Under the pieces are notes generated by a model, which worked only from the letters and a program-made list of their open reading frames with translations, did not search any database and was not told where the DNA came from. From positions 11,667,200-11,731,199 of the forward strand of contig JASEVX010000017.1 of assembly GCA_031761405.1 (NCBI GenBank): a DNA stretch of 64,000 bases. Reading direction: 5' to 3'. The DNA comes from Serripes groenlandicus. Taxonomy: Eukaryota; Mollusca; Bivalvia; Cardiida; Cardiidae. The translations under genes and the position numbers were made by a program. The number at the start of each line of letters is the position of its first letter. Within the stretch, counting starts at the first letter, position 1. Shown here in pieces: positions 3,868 through 58,900 of the stretch.

Positions 3868-5375
3868 CAAGAGGGCCTTGAGGCCCTGGAATCGCTCACC
3901 TGAGAATGGGCTATTTAAGACTTAATTCTTTCAGCGTCAATGGCAATATCATCAAGACAAACTTTCTGACAAATGTCAAGCTGCTCAAGTAAAAAATGCA
4001 AACCTCTATAGTGTTAACTAGATTGTTCTACAATTTGGCCTAGTGACCTAGTTGTTGCTTTCAGAGTGTTAACAAGATTTTCCTTAAATTTGGCCTAGTG
4101 ACCTAGTATTTGACTGGACATGATTCATATTTGACCTTGGACTAGATATCATCAAGACAAACTTTCTGAAAAAGTTTCAACATGCTCAAGGTTAAAATCT
4201 GGCTTCCAGAGTGTTAACAAGATTTTCCTTCAATTTGGCCTAGTGACCTAGTGTTCGGACAGACATGACCTATATTCGAACTTGGCCTAGATATCACTAA
4301 GACAAACATTCTGACAAAGTTTCAACATGCTCAAGCCAAAAATGCGGCTTCCAGAGTGTTAACAAGATTTTCATTAAATTTGGCCTAGTCTAGTTTTTGA
4401 CCTTGGTCTAGATTTGATGGAGATATATGTTCTGATAAACTTTCATGAAGATTGGATGCAAAATGTTGCCTCTAGAGTATTAACAAGCAAATGTTGACCT
4501 AGTTTTTGACCCAGCATGACCCATATTCGAACTTGGCCTAGATATCATTCAGCTAAACATTCTGACCAAATTTCAAGCTGCTGTAGCAAAACATGCGGCT
4601 TCTACAGAGTTAACAAGATTTTCCCTCAATTTGGGCTAGTGACCTAGTTTCTGACCCAATATGACCCATATTTAAACTTGACCTACATATCATCAAGACA
4701 AACATTCTGATAAAGTTTCAACATGCTCAAGTTGAAAATGTGGCATCTAGAGTGTTAACAATATTACCCTTCAATTTGGCCTAGTGACCTAGTTTTTGAC
4801 CCGGCATGACCCGTATTCGAACTGGACGTAGATATCATTCAGCTCAACATTCTGACTAAATTTCAAGCTGTTGAAGCAAAATATGCAGCTTCTACAGTGT
4901 TAACAAGATTTCCCTTCAATTTGGCCTAGTGACCTAGTTTTTTTGACCCAGCATGACCCATATTCGAACTTGGCCTAGATATCATTCAGCTCAACATTCT
5001 GACTAAATTTCAAGCTGCTGAAGCAGTGTTAACAAGATTTCCCTTCAATATTCGAACTTGACCTAGATATTTTAAAGACAAACATTCTGATAAAGTTTCA
5101 ACATGCTCAAGTTGAAAATGTGGCCTCCAGAGTGTTAACAAGATTTCGCTTCAATTTGACCTAGTGACCTCGTTTTTGACCTCATATGGCCCAGTTTCGA
5201 ACTTGTCCAAGATTTGATGGAGATGAATGTTCTGATACACTTTCATGAAGATTGGATGCAAAATGTAGCCTGTAGAGTGTTAAAAAGCTGAAATGTTGAC
5301 AATGCACAACGGACGGACGCCAGACAAAATGTGATCACAATAGCTCACCTTGCACTTCGTGCATAGGTGAGCTAA
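3868..5375 (+). mobile_element. CAAGAG..CTAA element i, tandem-monomer (pearl-like)
   Basis: Starts CAAGAG plus hairpin AGGGCCTTGAGGCCCT, then X = GCTCACCT. The body is about eight imperfect 150-190 base monomers (TTTGGCCTAGTGACCTAG, AGTGTTAACAAGATTT). Near the 3' end are GGACGGACGCCAGACAAAA and hairpin GCTCACCT..AGGTGAGC followed by CTAA. Non-coding. Confidence 0.75.
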
Positions 5376-5575
5376 AAAACAAGTAGCATTCAAATGATAA
5401 AAGGGTAAACCTGTTAGACAAGGAATTTAATAACATGTCACTCAAAGGTTACTTTCTGTCAAATTATTTCAATATTGAACAGGTAGTTTCCGATGATTTT
5501 TACACAGGTAGGTATCTAAGGTTCGTTGAGTGCCATGACATCAAGGTACCTGGTATAATGTTACCCAAGGAAAAT

Positions 5576-5866
5576 GTTTGTGAAACTATTTGGACAACAC
5601 GATGGAAGTCCGATGGGCACTAAATGGTCGCAATAGATCACCTGGATTATTTTGTGCTCAGGCATGCTAAACTAATTGCATAGTCTTTACTACAACATAT
5701 ACAACATCATGTAAATTGTTTGTGAAACTATTTGGACAACACGATGAGAGTTGGATGAACACTAAATGGTCGCAATAGATCACCTGGATTATTTTGTGCT
5801 CAGGCATGCTAAACTAATTGCATAGTCTTTACTACAACATACATTGTATACAACATCATGTAAAAT
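5576..5866. repeat. Tandem duplication, two ~145 base units
   Basis: Units at 5576..5716 and 5717..5866, both with GTTTGTGAAACTATTTGG and GGTCGCAATAGATCACC. Nearly identical, so recent. Confidence 0.85.
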
Positions 5867-5888
5867 CGTTCATTTTAACTTTGTCTCA

Positions 5889-5928
5889 TTTAAACCAGGG
5901 ACGTAGATGTCTACGTCCCTGTTTAAAC
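5889..5928. mobile_element. 26 bp perfect palindrome with 7 bp target duplication
   Basis: Palindrome 5896..5921, arms CAGGGACGTAGA/TCTACGTCCCTG with a 2 base centre, flanked by TTTAAAC at 5889..5895 and 5922..5928. Confidence 0.75.
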
Positions 5929-6085
5929 CAAAGGGATTCAGCACATACACACATATTATAGATAACAAGAGCATGCAGTGGAACGCAGTCATGTGTCTCG
6001 TGGGAAACTGGCTGGAAAAACAGACAATGGGGAAAAAATCACTAAGTGTCTCTCTGTTTTACAGTCAGGCAACACACACGACTCT

Positions 6086-6316
6086 AACTCTTTCCCACAT
6101 ACAACAATTCTGCAGCAGACGACCTTGAAAACATAGTGACAAAAACCTAAAGAAATCTCCTTAAAAGATAGCTTAATTGTTAAATAAAGTTGAAAACATT
6201 GTGGACAAAGGAGAAATTGCTCATCATGAGCAATTTCACCTTTGGCCACAATGAGGTTTTTTATAAGTCGTCTGCTGCTTTTGCGTAAAAATATGTCTGC
6301 AGGTGGGAAAGGGATA
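6086..6316 (+). mobile_element. TTAA MITE, type B variant
   Basis: Same sub-variant as 42328..42524 (GAAAACATAGTGACAAAAACCT in the left arm). Ends eroded to TAACTC.. and ..GGGATAAT. Confidence 0.7.
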
Positions 6317-6439
6317 ATCTAACACAAACTGTTTCACACTACCCTAACTCTGGTCATAAGGCCTTTGCCAGAGAATTTCAATTTGCAGATTCGGTCAGTA
6401 CTCATTAGATTGGAACCTGTTATTGAATTAGACTTATGT

Positions 6440-6896
6440 TTAACCCTTTCCAAGATACAGCAAATCTGCAGCAGACGACTTTGAAAACATACCCAAAATC
6501 TTTTTGAAAACTACCCTTAACCCTTACCCTCATATAGACGCTTTCTGACGCCTCTGCAGCAGACAGCTTTTTGAAAACATAGTGACAAAAGAAGAAATTG
6601 CTCAAAACAAGCAATTTCTCCTTTTGCCACAATGTTTTCCACTTTTAGTCATAGGTTATCCATTCAATTGTAGAGATTTTCTATTTTTTGACAAAATATG
6701 TTCAAAGTCGTCTGCTGCAGAATTGTCATATGAGGGAACAGGTTAAGTGAAAGAACAATAATTTAATAGAGTTGAAAACATGGTGACAAAAGGAGAAATT
6801 GCTTGTTTTGAGCAATTTCTTCTTTTGACGCCATGTTTCCAAAAGGCTGTCTGCTGCAGAGGTGTCTGAAAGTGTCTATATGAGGGAAATGGTTAA
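6440..6896 (+). mobile_element. TTAA MITE type B, split by a nested copy
   Basis: Left part 6440..6520, right part 6743..6896. The interruption falls at the internal TTAA of the CTC(C/T)TTAAATGAAAG segment found in intact copies. Confidence 0.85.
6517..6746 (-). mobile_element. TTAA MITE type A, nested in 6440..6896
   Basis: Exactly 230 bases from TTAA to TTAA. TTAA occurs on both sides of the insert and once in uninterrupted relatives. Confidence 0.88.
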
Positions 6897-7449
6897 CAAA
6901 TTTTGTTCTTGAGCTGAATCCCTGTGATTTAAACTGAAAGTAAACATGTATAAAACAAGCATTCAACTACATGTAAATATTAGTGTTTGTCAACTTTTTA
7001 TAAAAACACATATAATCATTATAGCTTTAATTATTTCATTTATTCAAATTAATGGCGAGGCCATTTATTTTCAATTGCAACTTACACAAAGCTTCATTAA
7101 CAATATATAATCCTTGTATTTTGTGTCTTATCACAGTTGAAAAATACATCAACATAATTATAGGTTTTTTATAAAAAATAAACACAAGTCAACACATCAC
7201 TTACCCAACATCAGATCAAGTTTGTAAATTTGTTCATACATGTATATTTATATTACTATAATAACATTAACTTTTTTGTATTATGGAATCAGTCCAGTGG
7301 TCTCAGAGGAGAAGATTGCAACAAAGACACATAACATGAACTATCCCCTGGTTTTTAACTTGTCTGCCGCAGATTTGATGGAAATGTTTTTTATTATAAT
7401 CATAACCAAGATAAAAAACATCTAGGCATAAATATAGTAACCTTAAATA
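6897..7449. other. Unassigned AT-rich spacer
   Basis: A scrap resembling the MITE right arm (CTGCCGCAGATTTGATG, ~7355) is the only recognisable piece. Confidence 0.3.
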
Positions 7450-7599
7450 AATGATAGTATTATCATTGAACACAGTTGAAAACATTGTGGCACAGGGAGA
7501 AATTGGCCATCATGAGCAATTCCTCATTTTGCAACATTGTTTTCAGACGTTGTATGCTACAGATGCGTCAAAATGTGTCTGTAAGTCAGAAATGGTTAA
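7450..7599 (+). mobile_element. TTAA MITE, right two-thirds
   Basis: GTTGAAAACATTGTGGCACAGGGAGAAATT through AAATGGTTAA; left arm missing. Confidence 0.6.
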
Positions 7600-7790
7600 C
7601 AGGTGCTTCCATAATTATGGAAATGTCTTTTCTTAGAATTAATAAAGAATAACTAAATAATATTTACTATTAAGATTAATATAATCAGGCCTAACTTGGT
7701 CTATGTTGTTCTCAAATGGATGAGTTCAGGCAAAACAGGTGTAACAACATTTTGAAAAAGTAGCTGTTACAACAGTTTTGTGCAAAGCTC

Positions 7791-8020: not shown

Positions 8021-8028
8021 CATGCTAA

Positions 8029-8728: not shown

Positions 8729-8793
8729 GACAATGTATGCCTGGTGGACAAACAACAAAGTTAGCCCTTAGCACCAAGGCAGGCAACACAAAA

Positions 8794-8990: not shown

Positions 8991-9029
8991 AAAAACACAG
9001 ATATAAATGACAACAGGATTAGATAAATA

Positions 9030-9256
9030 CTAGAATTTTTGACAGAAAAGGGGCAATAACTCTGATATCAAAATATTTGGATTATCCCCCTTTTGTGAAC
9101 CAATCACACACATTGATATAAACAATTGTCAGAAGTTTCAATGTTATCCTTTGAATAGAAAAAAAGTTATTTGAAAACGTGACGAAAAAGTGTGACAGAC
9201 AGACAGACAAAAAAAAAAGGAATCCCTAAGTGCCTACCATGCTACGCAGGTGACAC
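9030..9256 (+). mobile_element. CTAGAA element ix-a (pearl-like, single monomer)
   Basis: CTAGAATTTTTGACAGAAAAGG.. monomer, (GACA)n, then CGCAGGTGACAC, the complement of GTGTCACCTGCG at the 5' end of copy ix-b (26508). Confidence 0.65.
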
Positions 9257-9446
9257 AAAAACTCTTTTTGTATATTTACAATTACATATACATATCATAT
9301 ATCACTAACAACTTAAGGACTAGAAAGTCTACATCAACTACTTTATTAACATGATGATTGTGTAAATAGAGATTATCCATTTCATTGCAAGTCTATAACA
9401 TCAACCCATGACCTGATCTAAGACCTGCGTTATAGAGGATTATTGT

Positions 9447-10283: not shown

Positions 10284-10292
10284 TAGGTGTGG

Positions 10293-10454: not shown

Positions 10455-13400
10455 CTGAAATATATCGTATACATTTAATTAACCCTTTCCCTCATAAAGA
10501 CACTTTCTGACGCCTCTGCAGCAGACAGCCTTTTGAAAGCATTGTGACAAAAGTAGAAATTGCTCAAAACAAGCAATTTCTCCTTTTGCCACAATATTTT
10601 CAACTCTTTTCAGTAATTATACCTACATTTTTAGAGCTTTTACATATTTTTGCCAACTTGTAGTTTTCAAAGTCATCTGCTGCAGATTTGTTGTATGAGG
10701 GAAAGGGTTAAACATTCTATACAATCAGAACACTCAGCAATCCCCATCCTTCAAATTGATTTATTTATATGGTGTATCTTCCCTGTTGCTATCTTACTTT
10801 TTTGTAGTTGCTGAGAAATAGCCCAGACAAAAGTTTCCTGTCATATTATATAGAAAGTAAAAGGGTTATAAGTCATTTAAAAACTAGAACTATCACTGAA
10901 GATGATAAATACCCCCTAAACAGCACCTTGACCTACACCATGACTTAATAAGTAAAAGGGCCATAATTCTGTAAAATATCATGCAATTGTAACCCCTTTA
11001 GGATATGCACATCTCCTCTTGGTATAGAAGCTTCATGTAAAATTTTATTGAATTCCATTCAGTGGTTTGTAAGAAATAGGCCGGACAAAATATGGCTTCC
11101 GACCGACCGACAGCCCGACACATGCAGTGACTCATATATACCCCCTCTTCTTCGAAGGGGGTATAATCATCGAACCAGAACATGGTGATAATAATATGCA
11201 CCTCTTCTCTTTTAAGTGAACCTTTCCATAAAGTTGCATTGAATTCAAGTACGTAATTGCTGAGAAATAGCACAGGAAATTGCAACAAGAGCACCATGTA
11301 CGGCACAGATGCTCGACTGATAGAAAACAGAAAAAAAGCGGAGCTGAACAAAAAACCTTAACCAGACAATAGCTCTTGTTTTTTCAAAAGTCGAGCTAAA
11401 AAGGAATTTTCCTGATGATATTATATAGAATTTAAAAGGCTAATAAATCTGTGAAACAAGAGCTGTCTGTAATACAGTGCTCTTGACTATTCCACCGCTT
11501 TTAATGTACTGAGATATTGACTCTAATGTAGTTGCTACAAAACACAATTCTATTTTTATTTTTTTAGATTTTCCATATTTTTGCCTAGATGTTTTCAAAG
11601 TCGTCTGCATCAGAGTTGTTGTATATGGTAGAGGATTCAGACATGATGATAAATATTTATATGAAATAATCCTTGATTATTAATACATGTTTAATTCTTT
11701 TTCCACATATAGACGCTTTCTGACGCCTCTGCAGCAGAAGACTTTTGAAAACATTGTGACAAATATGCAAATTGTGCTCAAAACAAGCAATTTCATCTTT
11801 TGCCACACTGTTTTCAACTCTTTTATATGATTTAGCTATCAATTATGGACATTTTTCACACTTGTAACAATATGTTTTCAAAGTTGTCTGCTGCAGATAG
11901 TTTGTATTTATAAAAGGGTTAAGTTATTCTAAAAAAGTTCTTACATCAAATAGTTTAACATGGTAGCAGTATATATCAGCTGGTAACAAATTTTCCATCA
12001 CAAAATTTCGGCCATTCTTACTGATCTCCCTAACCTGAAAATATGAAGCACAGAATATATTAACTTGTCTCAATATATTATTGATTGATTGGGACTTAAC
12101 ACCGTTTTCAACAATTTTTCAGTCATATCTCGGCAGCCAGTTTACCTACTCAAGTGTTTCCTAGCGTTCTCACAACAGTTCTTCACATAACATACTTTCC
12201 AAGCAACTGGCTGCTTTTCCACATAGACTGTTAGCCAATTGGTGAAAGACGAATGACGCTTGTCACAGTGACTTTTGTCAAAAGTTGGATAGAATGTTTG
12301 CCGAACTGGGATTCAAACTCACAACCTCTGGATTGTCGTTCAAAGTCGTCTGCTGCAGATTTGTTGTATGTGGGAAAGGGTTAAACTCTATGTTGTGGGG
12401 ACTCAAAATAATCGTCTCACTGAGATGATTCTTTTGAGTACCCCCAGCATAGGGTTTAGTTGAGTCATAAGAGAGATATGTATGGGAAAAGACCTGTTTA
12501 CTCCCCTTATCTAGTCCTCTATTGTAACACATTGTGTAGGTCATTTATTGTTATGCTACATTCAACAAATCTGCATCAGACGCCTTTGAACGACAATCCA
12601 GAGGTTGTGAGTTTGAATCCCAGTTCGGCAAACATTCTATCCAACTTTTGACAAAAGTCACTGTGACAAGCGAAAAAAATAGAGGTGTGTGAAGTTCGTA
12701 GCTCAACCAAACAAGAGCACCGCGTACGGCACAGAAGCTCGACTGATAGGGAGAAAAAACAAGAGGGCCAAGATGGCCCTAAATCGATCACCTAATTAAT
12801 AGTAAATTAGTAGCAAATATTTAACTGCAAATATCTGGAAATTTTTATCAGGGAGTGCAAATGAAACTGAAAGGAGTGGACACTTCTCAAGAAACAGCTT
12901 ATCAGTAAAGGCCATTTATATCTTGAAATCTAACAAGAACTTTAATAAGAATGGAATTATAAAGTTTTTGTCATTTTGCACCTTTCCTGATGCCGCCTTG
13001 CTGCCCTTTTTTTCAACGAAATCAATATGGCTTCAACAGTTTATTTAGAGGGTCACTTAAGAAACATTTCTACCAAATTATCTTGCAATCGCACAAGTAG
13101 ATTATGTAGAAAAAGGATTTTAAAATTTGGGTATTTTTCTCACTTTCTGATGCCGCAGCAACCAAAGTTCTCAATGGAATTTAAATCTTTGAACAATTTT
13201 GAAAGAGGACCACCAAAGGAACATTCTTGTGATATTTTGTGGAAATTGGTCTATTGGAATGGTAGGAGTTGGTTGTCATTTGTAGCTAAAAGTTCAATTT
13301 ACCCTTTTTGTGATGACGCCTGGTTGATATGATTGTGTAACCAATCAAAACGGCTTAAACAAATTAAAAAGAGGATCATTACAGTAAGATTCGTATTATA

Positions 13401-16400
13401 TTTTCTTAAAATCAGACAAACACTTTCATAAAAATGGAATTTTCAAATTTTGTCAATTTGCCCCTTTTCTGATGCCGCCTGACTGCCATGTTTTTCGACC
13501 AATCAGTATGGCTTGAACAATTTTAATAGAGGGTCACCCAAGGAACATTTCTACCAAATTATATTTGAATCTGACAGGCAGATTCGGAGGAGAAGATTTT
13601 TAAAGTTTGGACATTTTGTCCCCTTTCTGATGCCGCAGCAACCAAAGTTCTCATTGGAATTTTAATCTTTGAACAATTTTGAAAGAGGACCACCAAAGGA
13701 ACATTCCTGTGATGTTTTGTGGTAATTGGTCTATTGGAATGGTAGGAGATGGTTGTCATTTGTAGCTAAAAGTTCAATTTACCCCTTTTGTGATGACGCC
13801 TGGTTGCTATGATTGTGTAAACAATCAAAACGGCTTAAAGAAATTAAAAAGAGGATCATTACAGTAAGATTCATATTATATTTTCTTTAAATCAGACAAG
13901 CATTTGCATAAAAATGGAATTTTCAAATTTTGTCATTTTGCCCCTTTTTTGATGCCGCCTGACTGCCATGTTTTTCGACCAATCAGTATGGCTTGAACAA
14001 TTTTTATAGAGGGTCACCCAATGAACATTTCTACCAAATTATATTTGAATCTGACAGGCAGATTCGGAGGAGAAGATTTTTAAAGTTTGGACCTTTTGCC
14101 CCCTTTCTGATGCCGCAGCAACCAAAGTTCTCAATGGAATTTAAATCTTTGAACAACTTTGAAAGAGGCCAACCAGAGGAACAGTCCTGTGATGTTTCAC
14201 GGAAATTGTCCTTGGAGTTTGGGAGGAGATGATGTTTAAAGCTAAAAGTTAACGCCGGACGGACGGACGACGGACGACGGACAAAAAGTGATAGGAATAG
14301 CTCACCTGAGCCTTCGGCTCTGGTGATCTAAAAAAGAGCTAAACAAAAAACCATAACCGGATGACCACGCCACCGCCGACGACGCCAGGGTCATGACAAT
14401 AGCTCTCGTTTTTTCAAAAGTCGAGCTAAAATGTAGTTGGCTGACCTGGGTCTTAGATAGTAGCTCAACCACTTAGAAAACATTGCAAATTGGTTGATCT
14501 GGGTTGTAGATCATAGCTCAACCACTTAGAAAACATTGCAAATTGGTTGATCTGGGTCGTAGATCGTAGCTCAACCACTTAAAAAACATTGCGAATTGGC
14601 TGACCTGGGTCGTAGATCGTAGCTCAACCACTAGAAAAACATTGCGAATTGGCTGATCTGGGTCGTAGATTGTAGCTCAATCAATGAAAAAACATTGCAA
14701 ATTGGTTCATCTGGGTCGTAGATCGTAGCTCAACCACTTGAAAAACATTGCGAATTGGCTGATCTGGGTCGTAGATCATAGCTCAACCAATGAAAAAACA
14801 TTGTGATTTGGCTGACCTGGGTCGTAGATCGTATCTCAACCACTAGAAAAACATTGCGAATTGGCTGACCTGGGTCGTAGATCAACCACTTAGAAAACAT
14901 TGCGTATTGGTTGATCTGGGTCGTAGATCGTAGCTCAACCAATAGAAATACATTGTTTTGGCTGACCTGGGTAGTAGATCGTAGCTCAACCACTAGAAAA
15001 AACATTGCAAATTGGTTGATCTGGATCGTAGATCGTAGCTCAACCACGTAAAAAACATTGCGAATTGGCTGACCTGGGTCGTAGCTCAACCACTAGAAAA
15101 AACATTGCAAATTTGTTGATCTTGGTCGTAGATCGTAGAACATTTCGATAATTTGACCTCTCGATAACTCAATTTTTTTTTAACTCAAACTTTTCGATAA
15201 TTCAACCTCTCGATAATTTTTAAATCAAACTTTTTGATAATTCGACCTCTTGGTAATTCAACCTCTCCATAACTCAAACTTTTCGATAAATCGACCTCTC
15301 GATAATTCAACTTCTCAATAACTCGAATTATTTTTAACTCAAACTTTTTGATAATTCGACCTCTTGATAATTCGACCTCTACATAACTCAGAACTTTTCG
15401 ATAACATTTCAATAATTCGACTTCTCGATAACTCGAATTTGTTTTAAGTCGAACTTTTCGATAATTCGACCTCTCGATAATTCGACTTCTCGATAACTCG
15501 GAACTTTTTTTATAACTCAAAACTTTTCGATAATTCGACCTCTCGATAATAGTTTATTAAGTAGTACATGTTAGGACCTATTTTTTGACAGCGAAAAAAC
15601 TATTTCTTTTTGTGTTTCATTATGTGATAATGTTTTATCAAACTCATCCAAGAAATGTGTTATTAAGAGGCTCGCTTAATAACAAATTTCTTAAACTTGT
15701 TTAATAAAACTTTATATGAATTGACAACTCATGTCAGATTCTATATATATCAGAGGACAGATAAGGAGGAGTAAAATGGTCTTTTTCCATCAATATCTTT
15801 CTTAGGACAAAATATAACCCTATGTTGTGGGTACTCAAAATATGATTCTTTTGTGTACCCACAAAATAGGGTTTGATGGTCAAATATGGATTTGGGGATG
15901 TGAAATACTCTTCTTATCTACAACTATGTTTATTAGCAAATATAAATGCTTAAATTAACAATAGTGCTGCGGAGCAAACGCCAACGCTTAGGGGCAGTTT
16001 TGAATATTTATTAAAGCCCTAGTTAGGTGACTTGGTATAGACATGTTTATGGTTCCTAGGAACATGTTTACCAAGTTTCATTTAAAATGTTGAGCGGTTT
16101 TTTATTTATGAGGTAAGGTTAAAGTTTTGTGACGACACAGACAGCAATGCAAAGGGTATCACAATTTGTTTCTTCGAAAAACAGACCAGCTAAAAAAAAC
16201 TTTATCACAAGATACGCAAGTCCTACTGTACCTTTTCATCATTCTTGCTGGCCCATTCTATTTTCTCTAGGAGATCGCTCAGGTCTCTTTTAAAAGGCAC
16301 ATAATGGACATAGGGTTCCAAATCTTTGTAGAAATGTTCGTAATAATGAGAGTCTTGTTTGAACACAACAGCGTCCCCCGCTATAAGATATGGAAACCTA

Positions 16401-19400
16401 TAGGCTGCTACCGTTCCATCTATGTTCAGCTGATATTTGTACTGCAAAAATAGTAAATGATTATACCACAGAGCTCTAGATAGGGGGCGTTTTGCATGTT
16501 CTAAAATCCTTATTTGACCCACTAACCCTATGTTGTGGGTACTCAAAAGAATCGTCTCAGTGAGACGATTCTTTCGAGTACCCACAACATAGGGTTTGCT
16601 ATAATAATAAAAGAGAAATTGTTGGAAAAGAGCTGAATACCCCTCCTTATCTGGAACTCTGATTATATCTTTCCAACATACAACAAATCTGCAGTAGAAG
16701 ACTTTGAAAACATCTAGGAATTACTATGGAAAATCGCTATATTATTAAATGAAAATATTATTTTTGAATGGAGTTGAAGATGCATCTATATGTGGGAAAG
16801 GGTTAAAGGAAAACAAAATCAAAATTGGTGTCTTGAAATGACAAGAATGAAGAATTATTGCATATTAGTTTTGGCATAAAAAAAAGTGTTTTGTTTGTTT
16901 GATGTTTAATGTTTAGTCCTAATATTACTAGGCGGGATAAAAATAGGTTCTTTGGCCTGAAGAAGGTTGGCCTTTGTGTCTTACTATTTGTAGTAAGTTA
17001 TTTTTAAAAAGGGCTTTATAAAAAATAGGCAGATAGTATAAGTCTGCATAATTACCATTCATAATTTCATCATTTAACCCTTTCCCTCATAAAGAAGCTT
17101 TCTTACGCCTCTGCAGCAGGCGACTTTTTGAAACAAAAGTGACAAAAGAACAAATTTCCCTAACCCTTACCCTAGGTTTTCAACCGTTTTCAATAATGAT
17201 ACCTTCATTTATAGGGATTTTCCATGTTTTTGCCTAGATGTTTTCAATGTCGTCTGCTGCAGATTTGATGTATGTGGGAAAGGGTTAAAAAATGTGGGTT
17301 GTTATATAATATTATTGTCCAGCAACAAAACCAATCATTGTGTTGACAAGGAGACAATTATTTGTAAATAAAACTATTTATTGCCTTGAAATTGATATAT
17401 TAACTCTTTCCCTCATATAGACGCTTTCTGACGCCTCTGCAGCAGACAGCTTTTTGAAAACATAGTGACCAAACAAGAAATTGCTCAAAACGAGCAATTT
17501 CTCCTTTTGCCACAATGTTTTCCACTTTTAGTCATAGGTTATCCATTCAGTTAAAGAGATTTTCCATTTTTTGACAAAATATGTTCAAAGTCGTCTGCTG
17601 CAGAATTGTTGTATGAGGGAAAGGCATGTTGACCACATCTGATGCAGATGACTTCTTCAAACATGGAGGGAAAGGAAGAAAACAGCTCATGATGACCAAT
17701 TTCCCCTTCTGCCACAATGTTTCAAACAGTACTCATTAATTTTATTTTAATTTAAAGAGTGTTTTCTATATTTGTGCTTAGATGTTTTTAAACTCGTCTG
17801 TTGTATTCATGAATTGCCGAGCCCCTGTAGCTCAGTCGGTAACGACACGGGCTGTCAATCCAGGGGTTGTGAGTTTGAATCCAAGCTCGGCCAACTTTTT
17901 TTCGGACATTTGAGAAAAGTCAATGCGACATGCGTCATTCGTCTTCCACCAATGGGCTAAGTCTATGTGGAAAAGCAGCCAGTTGCTTGGGAAGATTGTT
18001 GATATAACTGAGAAATTGAAAAAAACGGCATTAAACCCCAATCAATCAATTGTATTTATGAAAGGGTTATGACTTGAAGCTAAAGAGAGATAAGTGGAAC
18101 AAGATCAAACATAATGAGATACAGATACCTCAAATGAATGTTTTTTTGGTAATAAATCATGTACTGATAGATTACCAAAGAGGGTGGAGCTTTAATATTT
18201 ATTAACCCTTTCCCTCATATAGACGCTTTCTGACGCCTCTGCAGCAGACGGATTTTTGAAAACATAGTGACAAAAGAAGAAATTGCACAAAACGTGTAAT
18301 TTCTCCTTTTGCCACAATGTTTTCCACTTTTTGTCATAGGTTATCCATTCAATTATGGAGATTTTCTATGTTTTGACAAAATATGTTCAAAGGCGTCTGC
18401 TGCAGAATTGTCGTATGAGGGAAAGGGTTAAGGAATAGAGGTTTGCTATTATTGAATCTAGAAATAATGAATATGTCATTAAATATACAGACCTTCACTA
18501 TCATGATGATGTGTCCCCTGCAGTTTATGGGGATCATAAAATACAATGTTACACCCATTAAGAACACATATATTGTGATTTATTATGGATGCAGTAAGGG
18601 TAGTAAAACCACGGACATTATGATACATCACTATTTGATCCGTTTAATTCGAATTGACTGATTTATATAAATTTTTGGATCGGTCAAGACTCAAGGGTTA
18701 ATTTTGAAATAACTTAATAATCTTTTTACATGATGGCCTTATATCCCTCAACTAATTTAACCCTTTCCCTCATACGGCAATTCTGCAGCAGACGACTTTG
18801 AACGTATTTTGTCAAAACATAGAAAATCTCCATAATTGAATGGATAACCTATGACAAAAAGTGGAAAACATTGTGGCAAAAGGAGAAATTGCACATTTTG
18901 TGCAATATCTTCTTTTGTCACTATGTTTTCAAAAAGCTGTCTGCTGCAGAGGCGTCAGAAACGTCTATATGAGGGAAAGGGTTAATAGAACTTCAATAGT
19001 TTTCAATGATTTTTTTATTTTATGCTCTACGACAATTTTTTTAGGTTATACATGTATCCCATTCATGGTAAGTTACCAGTCCTACTGGTCCATTTAGCCC
19101 GACACCAGCCAGTCAATCATAATACTAACCCTGCAACCCTGAGTGCCAAGGAGGAAAGCCGTTACTTCCATTGTTAAAGTTCGATACCCGGTTGCGGCGA
19201 CATTCTTTCGGGTGATGTTTTCCATTGCCTCTCACCTCTGATCTATGTGAGAAAGTAGTCAGTGGCTTCGAAAGAATGTTGTGTAAGTACTGGTGTGGGA
19301 AAGCCAGGAAAACATGGGTAGGTGCACTGACCGCCGTGATATGACCAAAGCTGTTGAAAGCGGCGTTAAACTCCAAACAAACAATCAAACAAAACTATTG

Positions 19401-40900: not shown

Positions 40901-43900
40901 CAATTTGTCGTGCGATATTTTTTGTATGCATAACCAAGTCACTTTTCTAAGTTTACATTTTACTTCCGGTTACTTCGCTTTGTTTACATTTTGGCAATAT
41001 GAAACTAGGTCACGAACTGAGAAAAGGGCGTTTCGACGTTCACGACCGATAAACAGGCTTATATTTGAGACATATTTTCACAAATTATTTCTTATTTTTG
41101 TTTCTGTTACCAGTTTATGTTGATACTTATCTATTAAAAGGAGAATTCGACGTGATTTTTCATATCGATATCGCAAGCAGGTGCGCGTATGTAAACAAAT
41201 TATAGACTGTGCGACGTAAAGGTTTGTAGTTATCGGCTTTTAATTACATAGTTTATGAAAATAAAGTATCGCAGTCTAGCTAATAGGGACTGTTTTGTCT
41301 TCGAAAATAAAACACAAAAACGTAAATGCCAGTCAAAATAAAGAAACTGCACATACTTAAAACATAGGAATATTTATTTCATTTTAGATGTGTCATAACT
41401 TAGTGTTTTTAAACAAACGCAATTGTAATATGTTCAAGACATTTAAAAAAAAAAAAATCTAATAATAACCCCCCCTACCATGTGATTTCCGAAAACCTAT
41501 TAAAAATAGAAGTCACAGGCTTCTGCCCGGCGACTAATAATTACTGAAAAAAGTTGAAAACATTGTGGCAAAAGGCGAAATTGCTTGTTTGGCGCAATTT
41601 CTACTTCTGTCACGATATTTTCAAAAGTGGTCTGCTGCAGCTGGGTCAAAATGCGTCTATAGGTGGGAAAGGGTTAATTAAGAGATCAAGTACTCCCTTT
41701 TACACCATGCAGATCTCAATTTCACATAATGTTTCTTGGCTATTTCTTTTATTTTTGATTATTTTCATAATGTTCTCTTAACATGAGTATTTCCAATATT
41801 TTAGAGTGGTATACGTAGTTATACAAGAAAAAGAAGGATTTTTAAATTTATTATTGATAATGTTGTCTGTGAAGGGTTCTGAAAACCAATAATGTGAATT
41901 ATTTATCTTCCTATCTTCCTTGTTAAAAAAATCAAAGGAATGAAACTTATACACATTAAAGAGATGTGTTTATTCTTGCAGTGAGAATGATTTAGCAGTT
42001 TCCCACATGTATACATCTTATGACACTAATTCTACTGCAGGAGGCATCTTTTGAAAACATTATGGCAAAGGGCGAAATTGCTCCATTTGTCACAATGCTT
42101 TCTACTCTTGTCAATAATTTTATCTTAATTTATAGAAATTTTCCATATTTTTTGGTAAGATATAATTATAATATCGATGTTTACTGCTTCATATTTCTTG
42201 TATGTGGGAAAGGGTTCACTTATCGATATTTCAAACTTATTATGCAGCTTGTTTGGCTATTGCATAATGAACAGTAACTGTTTCTCATGTTGTCACTATG
42301 TTTTCAACTCTATCTAAACAAAACACAACACTTTCCTACATACAACAAATCTGCAGCAGACAACTTTGAAAACATAGTGACAAAAACCTGAAAAATCTCC
42401 ATAAAAGAAAGCTTAAATGTTAAATAAGATTGAGAACATTGTGGCCAAAGGAGAAATTGCTCATTTTCAAAAGTCGTCTGCTGCAATTGCGTCAAAATGC
42501 GTCTGCAGGTGGGAAAGGGATATCAGATAGTTTCCATTAATTCGGCACTGTTTTTGAATAAGTTCTTCCAAAATTGAGGTTTTTATTTTGCTTCATATTA
42601 AAACAGTAAATTATAAGTTTATGATCATGCATTATATGGCAAATGTTGAAGCTAAGACTTTAACCGAAACAAATCTTATAGTCACATTTCAGTATGTTGT
42701 CTGCTACAAATAGGTAACGGCATGTGGAAAAGGGTAAACGTTACGCTAAGCTGGATACTTAAGGCCAACTTGTCAACATTTACTTAATTAACCCTTTTCC
42801 ACATACAACAAATATGCAGCAGACGACTTTGAAAACATATACCCGCAAAAATATGGAAAAATTCTTTAAATGAAACTATAATTATAAAATAGAGCTGAAA
42901 GTATTCTGGCAATTTCTCTATTTGCCACAATGTTTTCAAAAGTCTTCTGCTGCAGAGGAGTCAAAAAGCGTCTATATGTGGGAAAGGGTTAACCTTTTCC
43001 CACTGGCAGTCAAACTTTAACGCAAAAGCAGCAAACGACTTTTGAAAACATTGTGGCCAAAGTTGAAGCTGCTCATGATGAGCAATTTAACCTTTGGCCA
43101 CAATGTTTTCAACTTTATTTAACAATATTGAGATTTTTCAGGTTTTTGTCACTATATTTTCAAAGTCGTCTGCTGCAGATTTTCTGTATATATGTGTGAA
43201 TGGGTTACAAATAATCCCCTTGTTGGTATAGGTGCTCAAGCATCTGCCTCGGGTGCAGGAGGTGGCAGGTTCCATCTACAGCTGGTTCAGGCCTTCAGGA
43301 TTATTGTGTTTACCCCAAACATAGGATTTGATGTACCCTTTCCCACATACAACAAATCTGCAGCAGACGACTCAGGGGTGGCAAAATCCATTGTCCGTAT
43401 TGCCCAGCTTGTGCGGACAAGTGAAATTGTGTAGGGATTTACTATATAACTATCATACGGACAAGTGCAAAATAGCATTTTGAAAAAACGGACAAGTAAA
43501 TCAAAATCATATTTCGCCACCCCTGCGACTTTGAAAACCTCTCAACAATAAAATAGAAAATCTCCCTAAATGAAGACATATTTATTGAAAACATGGTGTC
43601 AAAAGGAGAAATTGCTTGTTTTGAGCAATTTCTTCTTTTGTCACAATGTTTTCAAAAAGTTGTCTGCTGCAGATGCATCAAAATGCGTCTACAGGTGGGA
43701 AAGGGTTAAGCATAACAAGTGACTCAGTTAATTGTCAGGATAAATGGACCAGTGGCACTCAGGTAATTAACTTACCCAGGAATTGCTGTGATATAACTGA
43801 ACAATTGTTGAAAGCTGAAAAAAACACCATGCAAACAAAAAGTCTACGGATAAAATATCAGATTATGCACAATCGCGTATTTAACAGCCATCCATGGTTT

Positions 43901-46900: not shown

Positions 46901-49900
46901 CATAGAATACGTCTGGTGTAGAAACAGATCAGACAGCACATCTGTACACTCAGTTCTGGATCTGCAGTGTTAGTTAATAAGCAAAAGAAGTATGCAAGAA
47001 GCCTCCAGCATAAACTGTACACTTGTAAATATCACATTGTGTGGCAGCTGTGAAAAATGGACCATTAGTGATTATGTTGGTTTTTGTAAAGCACAGCTCA
47101 AATATTGAATAGTTGAAAATGTAGATGATTTCAAAAGTTGGAGTAGATGCATCAAAATATGTCTGCATGTGGGAGAGGTTTTATACAGAGGATGCTAGTT
47201 TAAATCCTATCTGGACTGATATGTGGGGAAGGGTTAACACTTTCCCACATACGACAATTCTGCAGCAGACGACTTCGAAAACATATTGGCAAAAATGTGA
47301 TATCTCCATAAATGAGAGTTAAATTATTAAATAGAGTTGAAAACAGTGTGGTAAAAGGGGAAATTGCTCATCATGAGCAATTTCTCCTTTTGTCACAATG
47401 TTTTCAAAAGACGTCTGCTGCAAATGTGTCAGAATGCATCTGCATGTTTATTGTAGGAAAGGGTTAACCCTTACCCTCATATAGACGCTTTCTGATGCCT
47501 CTGCAGCAGACGGCTTTTTGAAAACATAGTGACAAAAGAAGAAATTGCTCAAAACGAGCAATTTCTCCTTTTTCCACTATGTTTTCCACTTTTAGTCATA
47601 GGTTATCCATTCAATTATAGAGATTTTCTATTTTGTGACAAAATACGTTCAAAGACGTCTGCTGCAGAATTGTCGTATGTGGGAAAGGGTTAAGAAAAGG
47701 TATGATGACCAGCAACATAATCTTATCTTCGTTCACTTGGATACAAAGTTGTTGTACAAAGGTTGTACGTTGCTTGTGAGGACTATTGAGTTCATGCCTG
47801 GAGACCATTGTCGACTTTAACCCTTTCCCTCATACGACAATTCTGCAGCAGACGACTTTGAACATATTTTGTCAAAAATAGAAAATCTCTATAATTGAAT
47901 GGATAACCTATGATTAAACGTGGAAAACATTGGGGCAAAAGGAGAAATTCCCTCATATAGACCCTTTTTGACGCTTTTTCAGCAGACAACTTTTGAAAAC
48001 ATTGTGACAAAAGGAGAAATTTGCCAAAAAGAGCAATTTCACCAGTTGCCACAATATTTTCAATTTTTTGCAGTAATTCTACCTTCATTTATAGAGATTT
48101 TCAGAGGTTTTGCAAACATGATTTCAAAGTCATCTGCTGCAGGCTTGCTGTATGTGGGAAAGGGTTAAAGTAACTGATGATGGAAGATGCATTGCAGAGT
48201 AATTTTGTGCTCATGTGAACTTATGACAAGAGGGCCATGATGGCCCTGGATAGCTCACCTGGCAGCCATAGTTTCCGACCAATCAACTTGGCTTGAAGGA
48301 ATCTGATAGAGGGTCACCCTAGGAACATTTCTACAAAATTATTTGAAAATCGGCCTGACACTTTCGGAGAAGTTTTCACTATAGCCATATAAGGCAAAAT
48401 AGCCCCGCCCCCTGGTGGCCATGTTTTTTCACCAATCAACATGGCTTGAAGGAATCTGATAGGGGGTCATCCAAGGAACATTGCTACAAAATTATTTGAA
48501 AATCTGCCAACCAGTTTGGGAGAAGAAGAACTTTGAAAAAAAAATCATTTCGTTGCCATGGAAACCAGAATTCTGCATGGATCCAAATATTTGAAGGATA
48601 TCTGGTAAGGTCATTGAGAGGATGCTTTCTGTGAAGTTTCATCTCAATTGATCCACTGGTTACTGAGGAGAAGATTTCGACGCACGCCGGACGCCGGACA
48701 AAAGGCGATCACAATAACTCACCTTGAGCAAAGCTCAGGTGAGCTAAAAATGTATTACCCTCTCTAGTCTTCCAAGTAAAAAGATCAAGGTCAATAAAGA
48801 GATTATATAAGAATGTCAAGGACCAAAGAATCTTAACACTTTCCCACCTGCAGACACATTTTGATGCAATAGTTGCAGACGACTTTTGTAAAAATTTGGC
48901 CAAAGGTGAAATTGCTCATGATGAGCAATTTCTGCTTTGGCCACAATGTTTTCAACTTTATTAATACAATTAAGCTATCTTTTATGAAGAACTTTCATGT
49001 TTTTGTCACTATGTTTTCAAAGTCGTCTGCTGCAGATTTGTTGTTTGTGGGAAAGCATTAACCCTTTATCATTATTTAAAGTCAGTAGACAGGGACTTAC
49101 CAGACAGTTATGATAACATTGTACACTTAATCCTTTCCCACATAAAACAATTCTGCAGCAGACGACTTTAAAAACATCTAAGCAAATCTATAGAAATGAA
49201 AGTATAATACCTGCAAAGAGTTGAAACATTGTGGCCAAAGGAGAAATTGCTTGTTTTGAGCAATTTCTTCTTTTGTCACAATGTTTTCAAAAGTCGTCTG
49301 CTGCAGAGGTGATAGAAAGCATCATTCTGTAGGTGGGTAAGGGTTAAGAAATAATTCAGCTCTAACCTATTGTTAGACACTTCAAAATTCAAGAGCAACT
49401 GAATACAGAAGGAAAGCATGAGATTTAACTCTTTCCCGCATGTATATTATGCATTTTGACGCCTCTGCTGTAGATGACTTTGGAAAGCCTATCAATTATT
49501 AAATAGTACAGGAAAAGGAGAATGAATGGTTTAGGTAAAATATAAAATTACCTTTCATTTTATAAGGAGAATTTGCTACATGTTCTCCGTTAAAGCGTAC
49601 GTTTATCTTTATGTCTTCCTGAAGAAAATGGACTTTATATCGCACAATGTATAACCCATCTTTTCGGTCTATGATATTGTGCTGAATACGGGCTCGGTCA
49701 TTCAACACTTCAAAACTTATATCAAAATTTACATCTCCTATGGATTCGGTTATCCTGAAAAGAAATAGTCAGAACTATCATTATACATTGTATAAGATGA
49801 CTTCAATTGATTGATTATTGATTAATTAGTGTTTAAAGCCGTTTACAATTTTTCAGTCGTATCAGGGTAACCACTTCACCTGTTTCTAAGCTAAAATTGT

Positions 49901-52900
49901 TGATCATGTGACTAGCGAATACCAACTGCGTAGATCAATCTCCTTTGCAGAGAACCGTTCTTTACACTCACTTACAAATAGTTAATTATAGGTGATTTAA
50001 AATGTTTATTTGGTTCGAAACAAATGAAGAAAAGACCAAACTGAGATACAACTGGTTTTAATAGAAAAATGACTGAATGAACACTCTCTGCTTATAAAGA
50101 GAGTGTAAAGAACGACAACACTGCGAAGAAGAATGGTTCACGAATCGGGTATTTCGTACACAATTATTTCGTCCTTGACACTTTTAAATGTGTCATGTGT
50201 CATTAGATTCCCTACAGGCATTTTGCTTGCAATCTGCATATTGTTATGCATCATTGACACAAGGGCGCTCATCATAATATAATTTTAAAACATGATTAGT
50301 TTGTTATTTTCATTATAAAAAAAGAAGGAAAGAATTACAATAAAATAACATGTTGTATAATATAGGGTTCAGTTTATGTTCGAAATTAAGTTTGAAATTA
50401 TTCAACAATTTCAATGAAATTTAACTGTTTAGCTGATATTATATTTCGAGGGTGGCTTAATTTATAAATATTGGACTACATTTTAACATTTGTCAAAGTA
50501 TGATATCATTTTATAATATAATAACGACTTTTGAAATCAATGTGGCAAAAGGAGAAATTGCTCATGATGAGCAACTTTTCCATTTGCCACAATGATTCAA
50601 CTCTATTCATTAAGCCTTTCCCTCATACAGACTCTTTCTGACGCCTCTGCTGCAGACGGCTTTTTGAAAACATAGTGACAAAAGAAAAAATTGCTCAAAA
50701 CGAGCAATTTCTCCTTTTGCCACAATGTTTTCCACTTTTAGTCATAGGTTATCCATTCAATTACAGAGATTTTCCATTTGTTGACAAAATGTATTCACAG
50801 TCGTCTGCTGCAGAATTGTCGTATGAGGGAAAGGGTTAATAATCATACTGTTATTTATAGTGATTTTTTATATTTTTTATTTGATAATTTTGAAATTGTC
50901 TGCTGCGGATTTGTTGTATGTGGGAAAGGTTTATGTTTGACTTTTTCAGAACACAACTTAATTATTAATAGAATTGAAAACGTGGCAAATTATGAAATTG
51001 CTTGACATGAACAATTTCTTCATTAGCCCCAACGATTTCAAAAGTCGTCTGCAGCAGATGCGTCAAAATGTTTCTACAAGTGGGAAAGGGTGAATGTATC
51101 TGTAAACCTGTGTTGTAGAAGTTCTTACAAAAAAAATCTATGCATATATATAGTAATTACTAGCTTTAATATTACTATACTACTTCTAATAGAACACAAG
51201 AGAAAGTTGATGCGACGCATCAATGTCGCCGGAAATCCATACGGCAGTTATGCATAACACTAACATTATAGTAGTATCAACTGAGGGGCATATTGGAACA
51301 TCAGGGGTGGGGTCAAGTGAAAATGTATCATAACTTGCATTGTTTTGTCAACGAAGTGAATGATAATTGAAGCCTTTCATTGTTTATGATCAATCTCCAT
51401 TCCAAAGTAGGTTGACCATACACACAACCAACTAATTATTGATCATAAACAGTAATGGAAATGAGTAATCTTGCGAATCATTAGTCTTAGAATGTATACA
51501 GTGCTTTCATTAAGGAATAATTATAAGATTTGTGAATTCCACATACACTTTTCAAGATGTTTGTCAGAATATTTGAATTTTATTATTTTTCAATAAAACC
51601 ACAAAACAGACAATTTAGGATTTGCATGCAATAGCACGTCATTTTACCTTTCCTCTATTTAAGACAACAGTGGACACCTTTGCAGCAATCTACTTGAAAA
51701 CAATGAGATAAGGGTTAAATCGCTGAAGACATGAGTTTTCTCTTTTTCTCAAGATGATATTAGCTTGGCATCCTAATTATATCATACTTTAACAAATGTT
51801 GAAATGTAGTTCAATATTTATAAATTAGACCACCTTCGAAATATAATATCAACTAAACAGTTAAATCTCATTGAAATTGTTGTATAATTTAAACGTAATT
51901 TCAAACATAAACTGAGCCCTACAACATGTTAATTTATTTTAATTCTTTCCTTCTTTTTTTATACTGAAAATAACAAACTACTCATGTTTTAAAATTATAT
52001 TATGATCGATGAGCGCCCTTGTGTCAATGATGTATAACACTATGCAGATCGGAAGCAATATGCCTTTATGGAATTAAATGACACATTTAAAATTGTCAAG
52101 GACGAAATAATTTTGTACGATAAATCCGATTCTTTCTTATTCGCAGAGGTGTCGTTCTTGAAACTCTCTTTATAGGCAGAGAGTGTTCGTTCAAAGTAAT
52201 TTTTCCATTAAAACCAGTTTTATCTCGGTTTGTTCTTTTCTTCATTTGTTTCGAACCAAATAAACATATTAAATCGCATATGATTTACTATTTGTAAGTG
52301 AGTGTAAAGAGCGGCTCTCTGCAAAGGAGATTGATCTACGCAGTTGGTATTCGCGAGTCACGCGATCAACAGTTTTAGCTTAGAAACAGTTCATATTTTA
52401 GATATACATGGATAAACATTATAAAATGCCTTCTTCACAAATCAAGATATCTCTTTGAACATGAAAATACCATTCAGTTAGTTAAAATTGCCATTAGAAG
52501 GAGAATATTCGACGTCATTTTCATCAGCAGGTGCGCGTATGTAAACAACATTAGACTGTGCGACGTAAAGGTTTGTAGTTATAGCCTTTTGATTACATGT
52601 AGTATATAGTGTAAAATACAGTATTTCATTCTAGCAAATAGGGACTGTTTTGTCTTCGTAAATAAAACAAAAAAACATAAATGCGAGTCAAAATAAAGAA
52701 ACTGAAAATACCTAAAACATCGGAATATTTATTTCATTTTAGATGTGTCATTACTGAGTGTTTTTAAACAAACACAATTGTAATATATTCAAGACATCTA
52801 AATGTGTTTCTTTCTAATAATAATCCCCCCCTCCCATGTGATTTCCGAAAACCTATTAAAAATAGAAGTCGCGGGCTTCTGCCTGGCGACTAATAATAAT

Positions 52901-55900: not shown

Positions 55901-58900
55901 TATTCTGTCAATACTTTGACATAAATGGGGGATAATAATAGGTTCTTCATAGTTATGTGTAACTCATTTGACCTGTTTTTTTCTTCTGTATTAACCCTTT
56001 AATTGTCGTATGAGGGAAAGGGTTAAAATGTTTACAAAATCATTTGCAACAGATTTTTTCTTTTGTGGGAAAGGAATATTGACTTCTGTTCAGGCTTGAA
56101 CTTTATGGCCATGTGTAGGTGGTTAAAAGACATCTAAGAAATACATCTCTCAGACTTCCCAAGCTTCATCCACCCGCCTGAGAATTCCTGACAGTGTGCT
56201 GAGGAAAAAGTGTAAAGTCTTTAGAAATGTCTATGCTTAAGATACATGTTACAATGTATACAATATATATGCAAAAAAAAGAGATAATTGTAAGTTAACC
56301 CTTTCCCTCATACGACAATTCTGCAGCAGACGACTTTGAACATATTTTGTCAAAAAAAAAAATCTCTATAATTGAATGGATAACCTATAACATTGTGGCA
56401 AAAGGAGAAATTGCTTGTTTTGAGCAATTTCTTCTTTTGTCAATATGTTTTCAAAAAGCTGTCTGCTTCAGAGGCGTCAGAAAAAAAGTGTTCAGAGATA
56501 ATCATGGTTTGCAGATGGAGGCAATTAACTTGCACTCTTTAGATTCAGAAGATTGAGTGTATGCAGAATGCATGATTTTGAAGTATTTAATTCCAAGGAT
56601 CGATTTTTGTGTTTTCAGATTTGTCTAACACACCAAGAACTCGGGCGTGTGCTAGTTAAAAGCTGTTATTTCATTGGTATAGATTAGGTGAATTAATCCA
56701 AGCGCGTAGCTGACACAAATGCAAAACATTTTCCTATCTCGAAATTTCCTAGTAAATATGTTTATTTCACCATCAAGATCAAGATCAGTCATCATTTTGG
56801 TACTGAAATGCTCCCAGAAGACACCACTGACGATATAGAGGGAAAGAAATCCCGGCTGAGCATGCCCCCGGACACCCCTAAAAAACTTGCGTACACACTC
56901 TGTAGACCCTAGCTACGCTCCTGTCAGAGCTCTAGATAAGCAGCGTTATTCTTGTTCTAAAATCTTTATTAGAACCTCTAACCCTATGTTGTGGGTACTC
57001 AAAAGAAGAGAGCAATTGTGGGGAAAAGAGCTGAATACCCCTCCTTAAATGGACCTCTGGTCCCTGTAATCTCATCCTTTTCTGTTAGGCTAATCTGAAT
57101 ACATCCCTGATCTAGAGAAGTTTTCAAAAGGAAAACATTATAAAAGAATATAATACGATACTTCTAAAAAAATAAAATGAACAAATTTAGCATTTATGGG
57201 TAATATATGATACAACTTCTCTGTATCATTATATAGGAGTGTTTTGATAAATACAATTTATGAAATCAATCAGTTCAAAAGAGCTTTTCTTCAAATATGA
57301 GGACAACTAAGTGTAAAATCTAAATTACAAACCCCATTTGGGGGGTAAAATGTATCTAGTCCTTTAATTGGCTGGTAATACAGCATTACTGTATAGTGTA
57401 TTGGTGGTAGTTCAGTTTAGGGTCAATAATATCTACTGGTATCCGATCATAATTGATAGACTATTGTCTAGACAATTTGATGAAGTTGTAAATTGACCAA
57501 TATCTGGTTGGTTGTGATTTCCAGTTAAAAAGATGCTAGGAATGTTGGTATTGCTAAACTGCTGTATGAAGAATCTTGCAGCTTATTAGTCCCCTACCGG
57601 CGTGCCGAAGGGGACTATTAGGTTTGCACTCCGTCAGTCCATCTGTCAGTCAGTCAGTCAGTCAGTCAGTCCGGCAAATTTTTGTCCGGAGCATATCTCC
57701 AAAACTGTACTAGCTATGGCTATGAAATTCCATATGTGGATACATCTCATCAATGCGGAGTGCAGTGCATATGAACCATAACTCTTGCTTCCCTAATTTT
57801 TGAGTTATTTCCCTTTCTTTATTTTCATACTTGATTTTTGTCCGGAGCATATCTCCAAAACTGTACTAGCTATGGTTATGAAATTTCACACATGGATGCA
57901 TCTCATCAAGGGGGAGTGCAGTGGACATGAACCATATGAACCATAACTCTTGCTTGCCTAATTTTTGAGTTATTTCCCTTTCTTTATTTTCATACTTGAT
58001 TTTTGTCCGGAGCATATCTCCATAACTATACTAGCTATGGCTATGAAATTTCACACATGAATACATCGTATCAAGGGGGAGTGCAGTGGACATGAACCAT
58101 AACTCTTGCTTGCCTAATTTTTGAGTTATTTCCCTTTCTTTATTTTCATACTTGATTTTTGTCCGGAGCATATCTCCAAAACTGTACTAGCTATGGTTAT
58201 GAAATTTCACACATGGATGCATCTCATCAAGGGGGAGTGCAGTGGACATGAACCATAACTCTTGCTTGCCTAATTTTTGAGTTATTTCCCTTTCTTTATT
58301 TTCATACTTGATTTTTGTCCGGAGCATATCTCCATAACTATACTAGCTATGGCTATGAAATTTCACACATGAATACATCGTATCAAGGGGGAGTGCAGTG
58401 GACATGAACCATAACTCTTGCTTGCCTAATTTTTGAGTTATTTCCCTTTCTTTATTTTCATACTTGATTTTTGTCCGGAGCATATCTCCATAACTATACT
58501 AGCTATGGCTATGAAATTTCACACATGAATACATCGTATCAAGGGGGAGTGCAGTGCACATGAACCATAACTCTTGCTTCCCTAATTTGAGTTATTTCCC
58601 TTTCTTTATTTTCATACTTTATTGTCTTGATATACCTAAACATTGGGTTGCTATGACAACAGAAACAGACTCAAAAGTGCAAACCGGTAGGGGACTATGG
58701 TATTGCTTGCAATCCTCCAGTTACTTGTTTAAATAATAATGTACACTGTAGCTGTCATGTCAATATCTTTCTGGTAAAATAGGTATCTGACATTGTACTG
58801 AAACAATACTCTAATGTTGGTCTTACAATGGAGTTATTAAAGAAGCCTCAGTGACCATTTTTGAAGCCATTAGTAAATTTAAAGAGTTAGTGACAATTAA

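Follow-up and report, generated by a model that had tools for sequence, protein, structure and literature searches.

Families of non-autonomous Helentrons with matched subterminal repeats in a genomic window of the bivalve Serripes groenlandicus

RESULTS

Non-autonomous Helentrons in a 64-kb window. The sequence described here, which we call the window, is a stretch of 64,000 nucleotides (positions 11,667,200 to 11,731,199) of contig JASEVX010000017.1 of Serripes groenlandicus (assembly GCA_031761405.1; 1.76 Gb in 1,739 contigs). All coordinates are those of the window, which has a GC content of 35%. It contains repeats of several families, mostly on the minus strand, which are HINEs, i.e., non-autonomous Helentrons (rolling-circle elements). 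On the minus strand, a complete element reads, in order, a T-run, a 5′ subterminal repeat (S), a loop, an inverted repeat complementary to S (IR), a 3′ subterminal repeat that is also complementary to S (S′), a palindrome, and the end. An initial annotation of the window had described a number of these repeats as unrelated elements with co-varying ends. We conclude with high confidence that they are HINE families with matched S and S′, each presumably moved by a lineage of RepHel-endonuclease elements that shares its ends. The elements located in the window are as follows.

3868 to 5377, minus strand: HINE of family A1, whole; S at 5365-5372, IR at 5343-5350, S′ at 3894-3901, 3′ end CTCTTG at 3868
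9030 to 9261, minus strand: HINE of family F, second copy; the 5′ end is complete, but the 3′ subterminal repeat and the palindrome are lacking (by eye)
10884 to 11166, minus strand: HINE of family E1; S ATACCCCCT, S′ AGGGGGTAT, end TTCTAG; 3′ end 90% like that of the enzyme-encoding Helentron-C (see below) over 39 bases
11286 to 11401, minus strand: HINE of family C, short copy; S GCTCGACT, S′ AGTCGAGC
12712 to 14431, minus strand: HINE of family C, split by the A3 insertion
12760 to 14333, minus strand: HINE of family A3, nested in the preceding element; S GATCACC, S′ GGTGATC, IR keeping GAGC
24583 to 25454, minus strand: HINE of family B; S GCTCTACTGGC, S′ GCCAGTAGAGC
26508 to 27198, minus strand: HINE of family F; its own S/S′ match is TGTCACCT
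30680 to 32328, minus strand: HINE of family D; S GTCGCCGG, S′ CCGGCGAC
35997 to 36040, minus strand: 3′ end of family B; the 5′ hairpin of the element looks deleted (by eye)
37912 to 37954, minus strand: 3′ end of family E
39193 to 39240, plus strand: 3′ end of family D, on the opposite strand
40071 to 41539, minus strand: HINE of family D, second copy; IR altered by C-to-T at two positions (by eye)
48227 to 48749, minus strand: HINE of family A2, absent from the initial annotation; S-S′ run of 11, IR with a G·T pair
51197 to 52895, minus strand: HINE of family D, third copy
57583 to 58720, plus strand: HINE of family G; S at the 5′ hairpin from 57588, S′ at 58685-58696, 3′ end approximate

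The eight pairs of complementary end motifs listed in the initial annotation are all exact reverse complements and are present at the elements named. The interiors of the families differ, as had been claimed, but the ends of A1, A2, A3, and A4 are plainly related, as are those of E1, E2, and E3, so the pairs are not all independent events. The direction of the elements had been read backwards, with CAAGAG or CTAGAA as the 5′ start: in both enzyme-encoding Helentrons with a fixed 3′ end, Rep lies upstream of an end of this type. Reverse-complemented, CAAGAG becomes the 3′ end CTCTTG, CTAGAA becomes TTCTAG, and CTAA becomes the 5′ TTAG; the supposed 5′ hairpin is the 3′ palindrome, and the supposed 3′ hairpin is the 5′ hairpin. 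The element near 57587, taken for an exception lacking CTAA, simply lies on the plus strand. The single pair assigned to the elements at 26508 and 9030 joined the 3′ end of one to the 5′ end of the other; the element at 26508 has its own 5′ end, TTTTTGTCACCTTTGAGC, with an 8-base match to its own 3′ end. At 12760 the pair was correct, but the nesting had been missed.

Identity of the elements. Complete HINEs start with a T-run or T/A-run, and those on the minus strand end in CTCTTG, TTCTAG, or a related sequence, followed by T. S′ sits ~20 to 35 bases inside the 3′ end with the palindrome after it, many copies carry a GTCY microsatellite between the 5′ hairpin and S′, and several contain tandem monomers. 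Of the features that define Helentrons and HINEs, the following were found: subterminal inverted repeats, with exact runs of 7 to 12 bases (the published criterion for a family is 11, a length attained in 4 of 12); an IR or palindrome at the 5′ repeat; a palindrome near the 3′ end (imperfect in family C); a T-rich or TT target, with T-runs at most 5′ ends; and, in the enzyme-encoding Helentron-I, RepHel with a C-terminal endonuclease. Two other assignments were rejected. A miniature inverted-repeat transposable element (MITE) of a terminal-inverted-repeat transposon would have its inverted repeats at both very ends and a target site duplication; judged by the position of the repeats, these elements differ, as S′ is internal to the 3′ end and then comes a palindrome. 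A canonical Helitron1 would have a 5′ TC, a 3′ CTRR, an A^T target, and a single 3′ hairpin, whereas these elements have a 5′ T-run and S hairpin, a 3′ flanking T, and inverted repeats; the one agreement with CTRR is the CTAG in families E and F.

We surveyed ends in 264 kb, made up of the window and 20 sampled 10-kb stretches of the genome. A search for the hairpin and a GTC motif, in which S′ was not used, returned 16 5′ ends compared with none in one Markov shuffle; 15 were HINE-like by reading, and one (in L017) belonged to another palindromic repeat. A stem adjoins 14 of 127 CTCTTG sites, and 12 of these were judged to be HINE ends. Of 27 3′-end matches kept, all 25 with E up to 1e-3 (the family G end set by eye) were followed by T, against a T frequency of 0.32; the two weaker matches were left out. 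The 5′ hairpins of all 12 families folded better than their own shuffled mean (z of −1.8 to −7.8), weakly so in family C, where 9 of 200 shuffles folded as well, and in family F (14 of 200, for the hairpin of the copy at 9030). Genome-wide, we counted 26,314 A-type 5′ ends (control, 3), 20,823 A-type 3′ ends with GGTGAGC and 5,046 with GGTGATC (controls, 0), and 9,005 family D 5′ ends at up to two mismatches (control, 0). A loose, unguided scan for hairpin-flanked inverted repeats gave 217 and 207 per strand compared with 98 to 155 in ten simulations, and 55 and 44 compared with 7 to 19 for runs of 10 or more; being swamped by other repeats, it was set aside as support.

The two ends match within each family. 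We took 12 end pairs, hand-chosen at one or two per family from the window and from sister families in the 200 kb of sampled genome, and compared S and S′. The longest matches summed to 112, whereas permuting the ends among families gave a mean of 61.8 and a maximum of 102 and never reached the observed sum in 200,000 permutations. The ends thus follow each other family by family, as the initial annotation had proposed. With nine clearly distinct families, the observed sum was reached by only one of 362,880 permutations, the true pairing, and in a similar set of 12 every family scored better than shuffled versions of its 3′ segment (largest fraction, 0.0085). The exact S-S′ run was longer than the exact S-IR run in 10 of the 12 families, the exceptions being A1 and E1; exact runs ignore bulges, so that IR length is understated in families B, D, and I.

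Joint change could also be followed within families. Elements of the A group have either C or A directly after TTTTAG in S. We joined 48 A-type 5′ ends with known letters (contig C1, 0.08 to 1.34 Mb) to the nearest 3′ end, GGTGAGC or GGTGATC, accepting reciprocal nearest neighbours only. All 17 pairs within 2.5 kb were concordant (C/G in 13 and A/T in 4; Fisher 4e-4), as were 19 of 20 pairs within 4 kb (C/G in 14, A/T in 5, and one discordant). Because the copies fall into few subfamilies, this concordance counts as about one evolutionary change, not 17. In family E, where the variable base follows CCCCC in S and precedes GGGGG in S′, six of seven complete copies were concordant over three states (T/A in three copies, A/T in two, G/C in one, and A/A in one; incomplete copies were left out). 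Independent variation of the two motifs, the outcome that the initial annotation had named as fatal to its claim, was therefore not what these groups displayed.

The A group also bears on whether the match could have arisen without selection, S′ descending from a copy of IR by template switching between direct repeats. Such a descent would leave IR and S′ nearly alike on the same strand, as they are in many families. In A3, however, both distant subterminal repeats are changed and the neighbouring IR is not: all 15 lettered A-type rows with A in S have G at the opposing IR position, whereas S′ carries T, as in the 5,046 3′ ends counted above. S also fits S′ better than it fits IR in 10 of 12 families, and we consider this origin very unlikely.

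Enzyme-encoding Helentrons with the same plan. The Rep model PF14214 has at least 133 matches in the genome, and we sought ends beside six RepHel groups among them. Two copies of Helentron-I, on contigs C852 and C963, have a common 5′ end (5 and 7 Ts, then GGCCGGATTGC) that lies 6.3 kb (C852) and 6.2 kb (C963) upstream of Rep. Their 3′ stretch is identical over 326 bases and ends in ACAATCCGACCATACCGTCTTCAGCGGTTTCTTG; a few more Ts agree, the copies then part, and their flanks differ. The C963 copy has a 2,266-residue stop-free frame with OTU, DUF6570, Rep (PF14214), and PIF1 (PF05970); the stretch analyzed ends inside the endonuclease, and ~1.4 kb between the C963 pieces lies outside the data. 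In the C852 copy, whose frame has one stop, a scan identified the endonuclease (PF03372), and the first 170 residues of this piece are the end of the C963 frame. Helentron-I has its own S, GGCCGGATTG, and S′, CAATCCGACC, which match at 9 of 10 positions; it is a Rep/helicase element with both ends on this plan, of the kind that the initial annotation had advised searching for. A 3′ end of family D that lies 2.2 kb past Helentron-I (in L031) was rejected as the end of the Helentron itself, comparison of copies showing it to be a separate D copy. Two more 5′ ends with GGCCGGATTGC lie on the reverse strand of L041 (at ~1960 and ~2990), upstream of the Rep gene of a second element, Helentron-C, and are perhaps HINEs of Helentron-I.

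Helentron-C copies on C213 and C1 have frames of 3,030 and 3,135 residues, with PF14214 in the 3,030-residue frame, and are nearly identical up to CGGGGGTATTAATCACATTCAGTGATAGTTCTAG^TT (GATAGTTCTAG^TT), after which they diverge. This 3′ end has an E-type S′ and palindrome; besides the 39 bases that are 90% like family E of the window, 102 bases are 92% identical to a HINE in L026. RepHel groups B (L035) and H (L034) showed no end of this plan by eye, and in RepHel group D (L033) only a nested family B HINE was seen. RepHel group J (L029, L030) has PIF1 and two copies, 99% identical over 7.4 kb, that are probably recent; it was dropped as a test case, since the copies are alike over the whole 7.4 kb without an end and the scanned frame has no endonuclease. 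Named relatives of the enzyme come from Littorina, Saccostrea, and Mytilus and also from corals and sea cucumbers. Two Helentron-like proteins (P0003 and P0071) are named as bacterial metagenome bins; our guess is host contamination of those bins.

Several diverged RepHel lineages are present in the genome, and the ends observed differ in sequence on one plan. Helentron-I and the C group are 28% identical over ~600 positions upstream of and into Rep, and the endonuclease pieces of the I, D, and H lineages are 22 to 29% identical. These data bear on the proposal in the initial annotation that a single enzyme moves all of the families by recognizing structure alone. A plan common to families with unrelated end sequences would suit such an enzyme. 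Against it, two RepHel lineages with different end sequences share this plan, more diverged lineages exist, Helentron-I has an S/S′ pair of its own, and in the only window family with an identified partner end, the two are alike in sequence. The proposal is unsupported, and we regard it as the least probable of the explanations considered.

Strand pairing or protein binding. Exact pairing of S with S′ is possible over 7 to 12 bases in every one of the 12 families; in most, S can also pair with IR, family F least. Compensatory change alone is no proof of strand pairing, because a protein that binds inverted copies of a site gives the same pattern; our tests do not separate pairing of the S and S′ strands from two binding sites of one protein, and both fit. 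We give a slight edge over even chances to the possibility that S and S′ are inverted copies of one double-stranded binding site for a DNA-binding portion of the cognate Rep protein and that the strands never pair. The two repeats would then co-vary as the protein changes, like the terminal inverted repeats of DNA transposons generally. This is consistent with the better conservation of S-S′ than of S-IR (by exact runs, bulges ignored), with the unchanged IR of A3, and with the divergence of the enzyme lineages. Mismatches within 27 distinct hairpins (G·T 14, A·C 5, other 15) also fit a protein site: 12 of the 14 G·T mismatches fall at a position that the search pattern restricted to C or T, and outside this position G·T is not in excess over A·C (2 versus 5), although the comparison is dominated by decay after insertion and has low power. 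A plain double-stranded site, however, needs no 5′ hairpin, and one is kept in all families examined (weakly in C and F). Moreover, hairpins at the family level contain G·T pairs in A2, B, one D copy, and Helentron-I as opposed to one C·A in E3, by eye and too few for a test.

Single-strand pairing of S with S′ in the course of rolling-circle transposition, with the S-IR and S-S′ states alternating to set the end of replication or strand transfer, is a serious but somewhat less probable possibility. The pairing potential of S with S′ in 12 of 12 families and with IR in most, the mostly longer S-S′ match that a switch would need, the joint change in sister families, and the retained alternative 5′ hairpin all agree with it. 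The C·A mismatch in both Helentron-I copies and the lack of a wobble preference do not, and protein binding sites predict identical data. A stronger form, in which S-IR and S-S′ are the exclusive pairings of a DNA switch that ends Helentron transposition, with the ends proofread by complementarity and an enzyme that needs only their shape, seems to us unlikely.

Other features of the window. A tandem repeat with a 53-bp unit (13.5 copies, 14437-15138) lies directly beside the nested HINEs at 12712-14431. A very abundant MITE-like repeat of ~230 bp occurs at 59 places, ~10.5 kb in total (e.g., 6519-6746, 18204-18431, and 37445-37672), with ends like AACCCTTTCCCTCATA and its complement (by eye) and, in many copies, an inner AGAAATTGCTC stem-loop. 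There is also an AGAG microsatellite of 236 bp at 60936-61171. A 308-amino-acid open frame on the minus strand at 19-945 resembles the start of a cytochrome P450 gene.

DISCUSSION

In the explanation that we favor, each HINE family would owe its movement to the RepHel-endonuclease lineage with which it has its ends in common. S and S′ would match since the same enzyme must define both ends, and S′ would follow S if copies with mismatched ends are not propagated. S would be either in the S-IR hairpin or matched by S′. The 3′ palindrome may mark termination, by analogy with the canonical Helitron Helraiser, in which a hairpin near the 3′ end has been shown to act as the terminator (PMC4778049; this and the other comparisons with published work refer to the available parts of the papers cited).

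Several observations weigh against this explanation. One A pair, 3.6 kb apart, and one family E copy (L019) were discordant, and within 2.5 kb no reciprocal 3′ partner was present for 31 of the 48 lettered A-type 5′ ends. The exact S/S′ run is below 11 bases in 8 of 12 families, shorter than published subterminal inverted repeats (subTIRs), and in Helentron-I the run is 7, with the C·A mismatch kept in both copies. Helentron-I, the only Helentron for which both ends were located, does not correspond to any family of the window (its repeat gave no match in the window with up to three mismatches). Family E is linked to a RepHel element by its 3′ end only; a search of L037 and L041 did not reveal the 5′ end of that element, Helentron-C, whose endonuclease-like tail was identified by eye only. 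The six RepHel groups examined yielded no autonomous partner for families A, B, C, D, F, and G.

Elements of this kind are already known, and the plan, one example of compensatory change, and the pairing model have been published. Like the Helentrons and HINEs (DINE-1-like) of Thomas et al. (2014, PMC4067079), the elements here have subterminal inverted repeats, an IR beside the 5′ repeat (in DINE-1), a microsatellite, central repeats, a 3′ palindrome, and a T-rich target, and the enzyme likewise is a RepHel with a C-terminal endonuclease and OTU. In contrast to those described there, most exact S/S′ runs here are 7 to 10 bases long, the 3′ ends are CTCTTG, TTCTAG, or TTCTTG, and in Helentron-I OTU lies within the RepHel frame. 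Helitron2 (Bao and Jurka 2013, PMC3627910) shares asymmetric terminal inverted repeats (8 to 15 bp), a 5′ hairpin with the 5′ repeat, and a 3′ hairpin after the 3′ repeat; unlike it, Helentron-I has an endonuclease, and here several families of one genome were counted. For Helitron2, Bao and Jurka reported compensatory changes in two related Culex elements and stated a model in which pairing of the 5′ and 3′ ends opens the 5′ hairpin and sets the end point of replication (PMC3627910). Helraiser shares the 3′ hairpin near its end and a 3′ CTAG, as in families E and F, but starts with TC (PMC4778049).

The likeness to bivalve "pearl" elements noted in the initial annotation holds. Pearl elements have been recategorized as non-autonomous Helentrons (PMC7492417), and they and the Pacific oyster Cg_HINEs have, like the HINEs here, a 5′ subTIR, an IR, a GTCY-type microsatellite, satellite-like monomers, a 3′ subTIR with a palindrome, and oligo-T sites. 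According to the available part of that paper, the Cg_HINEs could not be related to autonomous elements, whereas the genome studied here has a RepHel element whose 3′ end is like that of family E. A literature search, with most subscription journals outside it, returned no paper uniting Helitrons, covariation, and terminal inverted repeats; we make no claim of novelty for a genome-wide test.

Through family E, one HINE group is now linked to a RepHel-encoding relative whose 3′ end matches its own, a type of connection that the oyster study had left unresolved (PMC7492417). The end-pairing model rests, in the available part of its source, on one pair of Culex elements (PMC3627910); tens of thousands of copies, in sister families that differ at single bases of S, IR, and S′, form a natural set on which to examine it. 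Were the unlikely switch to prove true, families could drift in S with the enzyme unchanged. These Helentrons are a group of transposons whose two ends must match each other.

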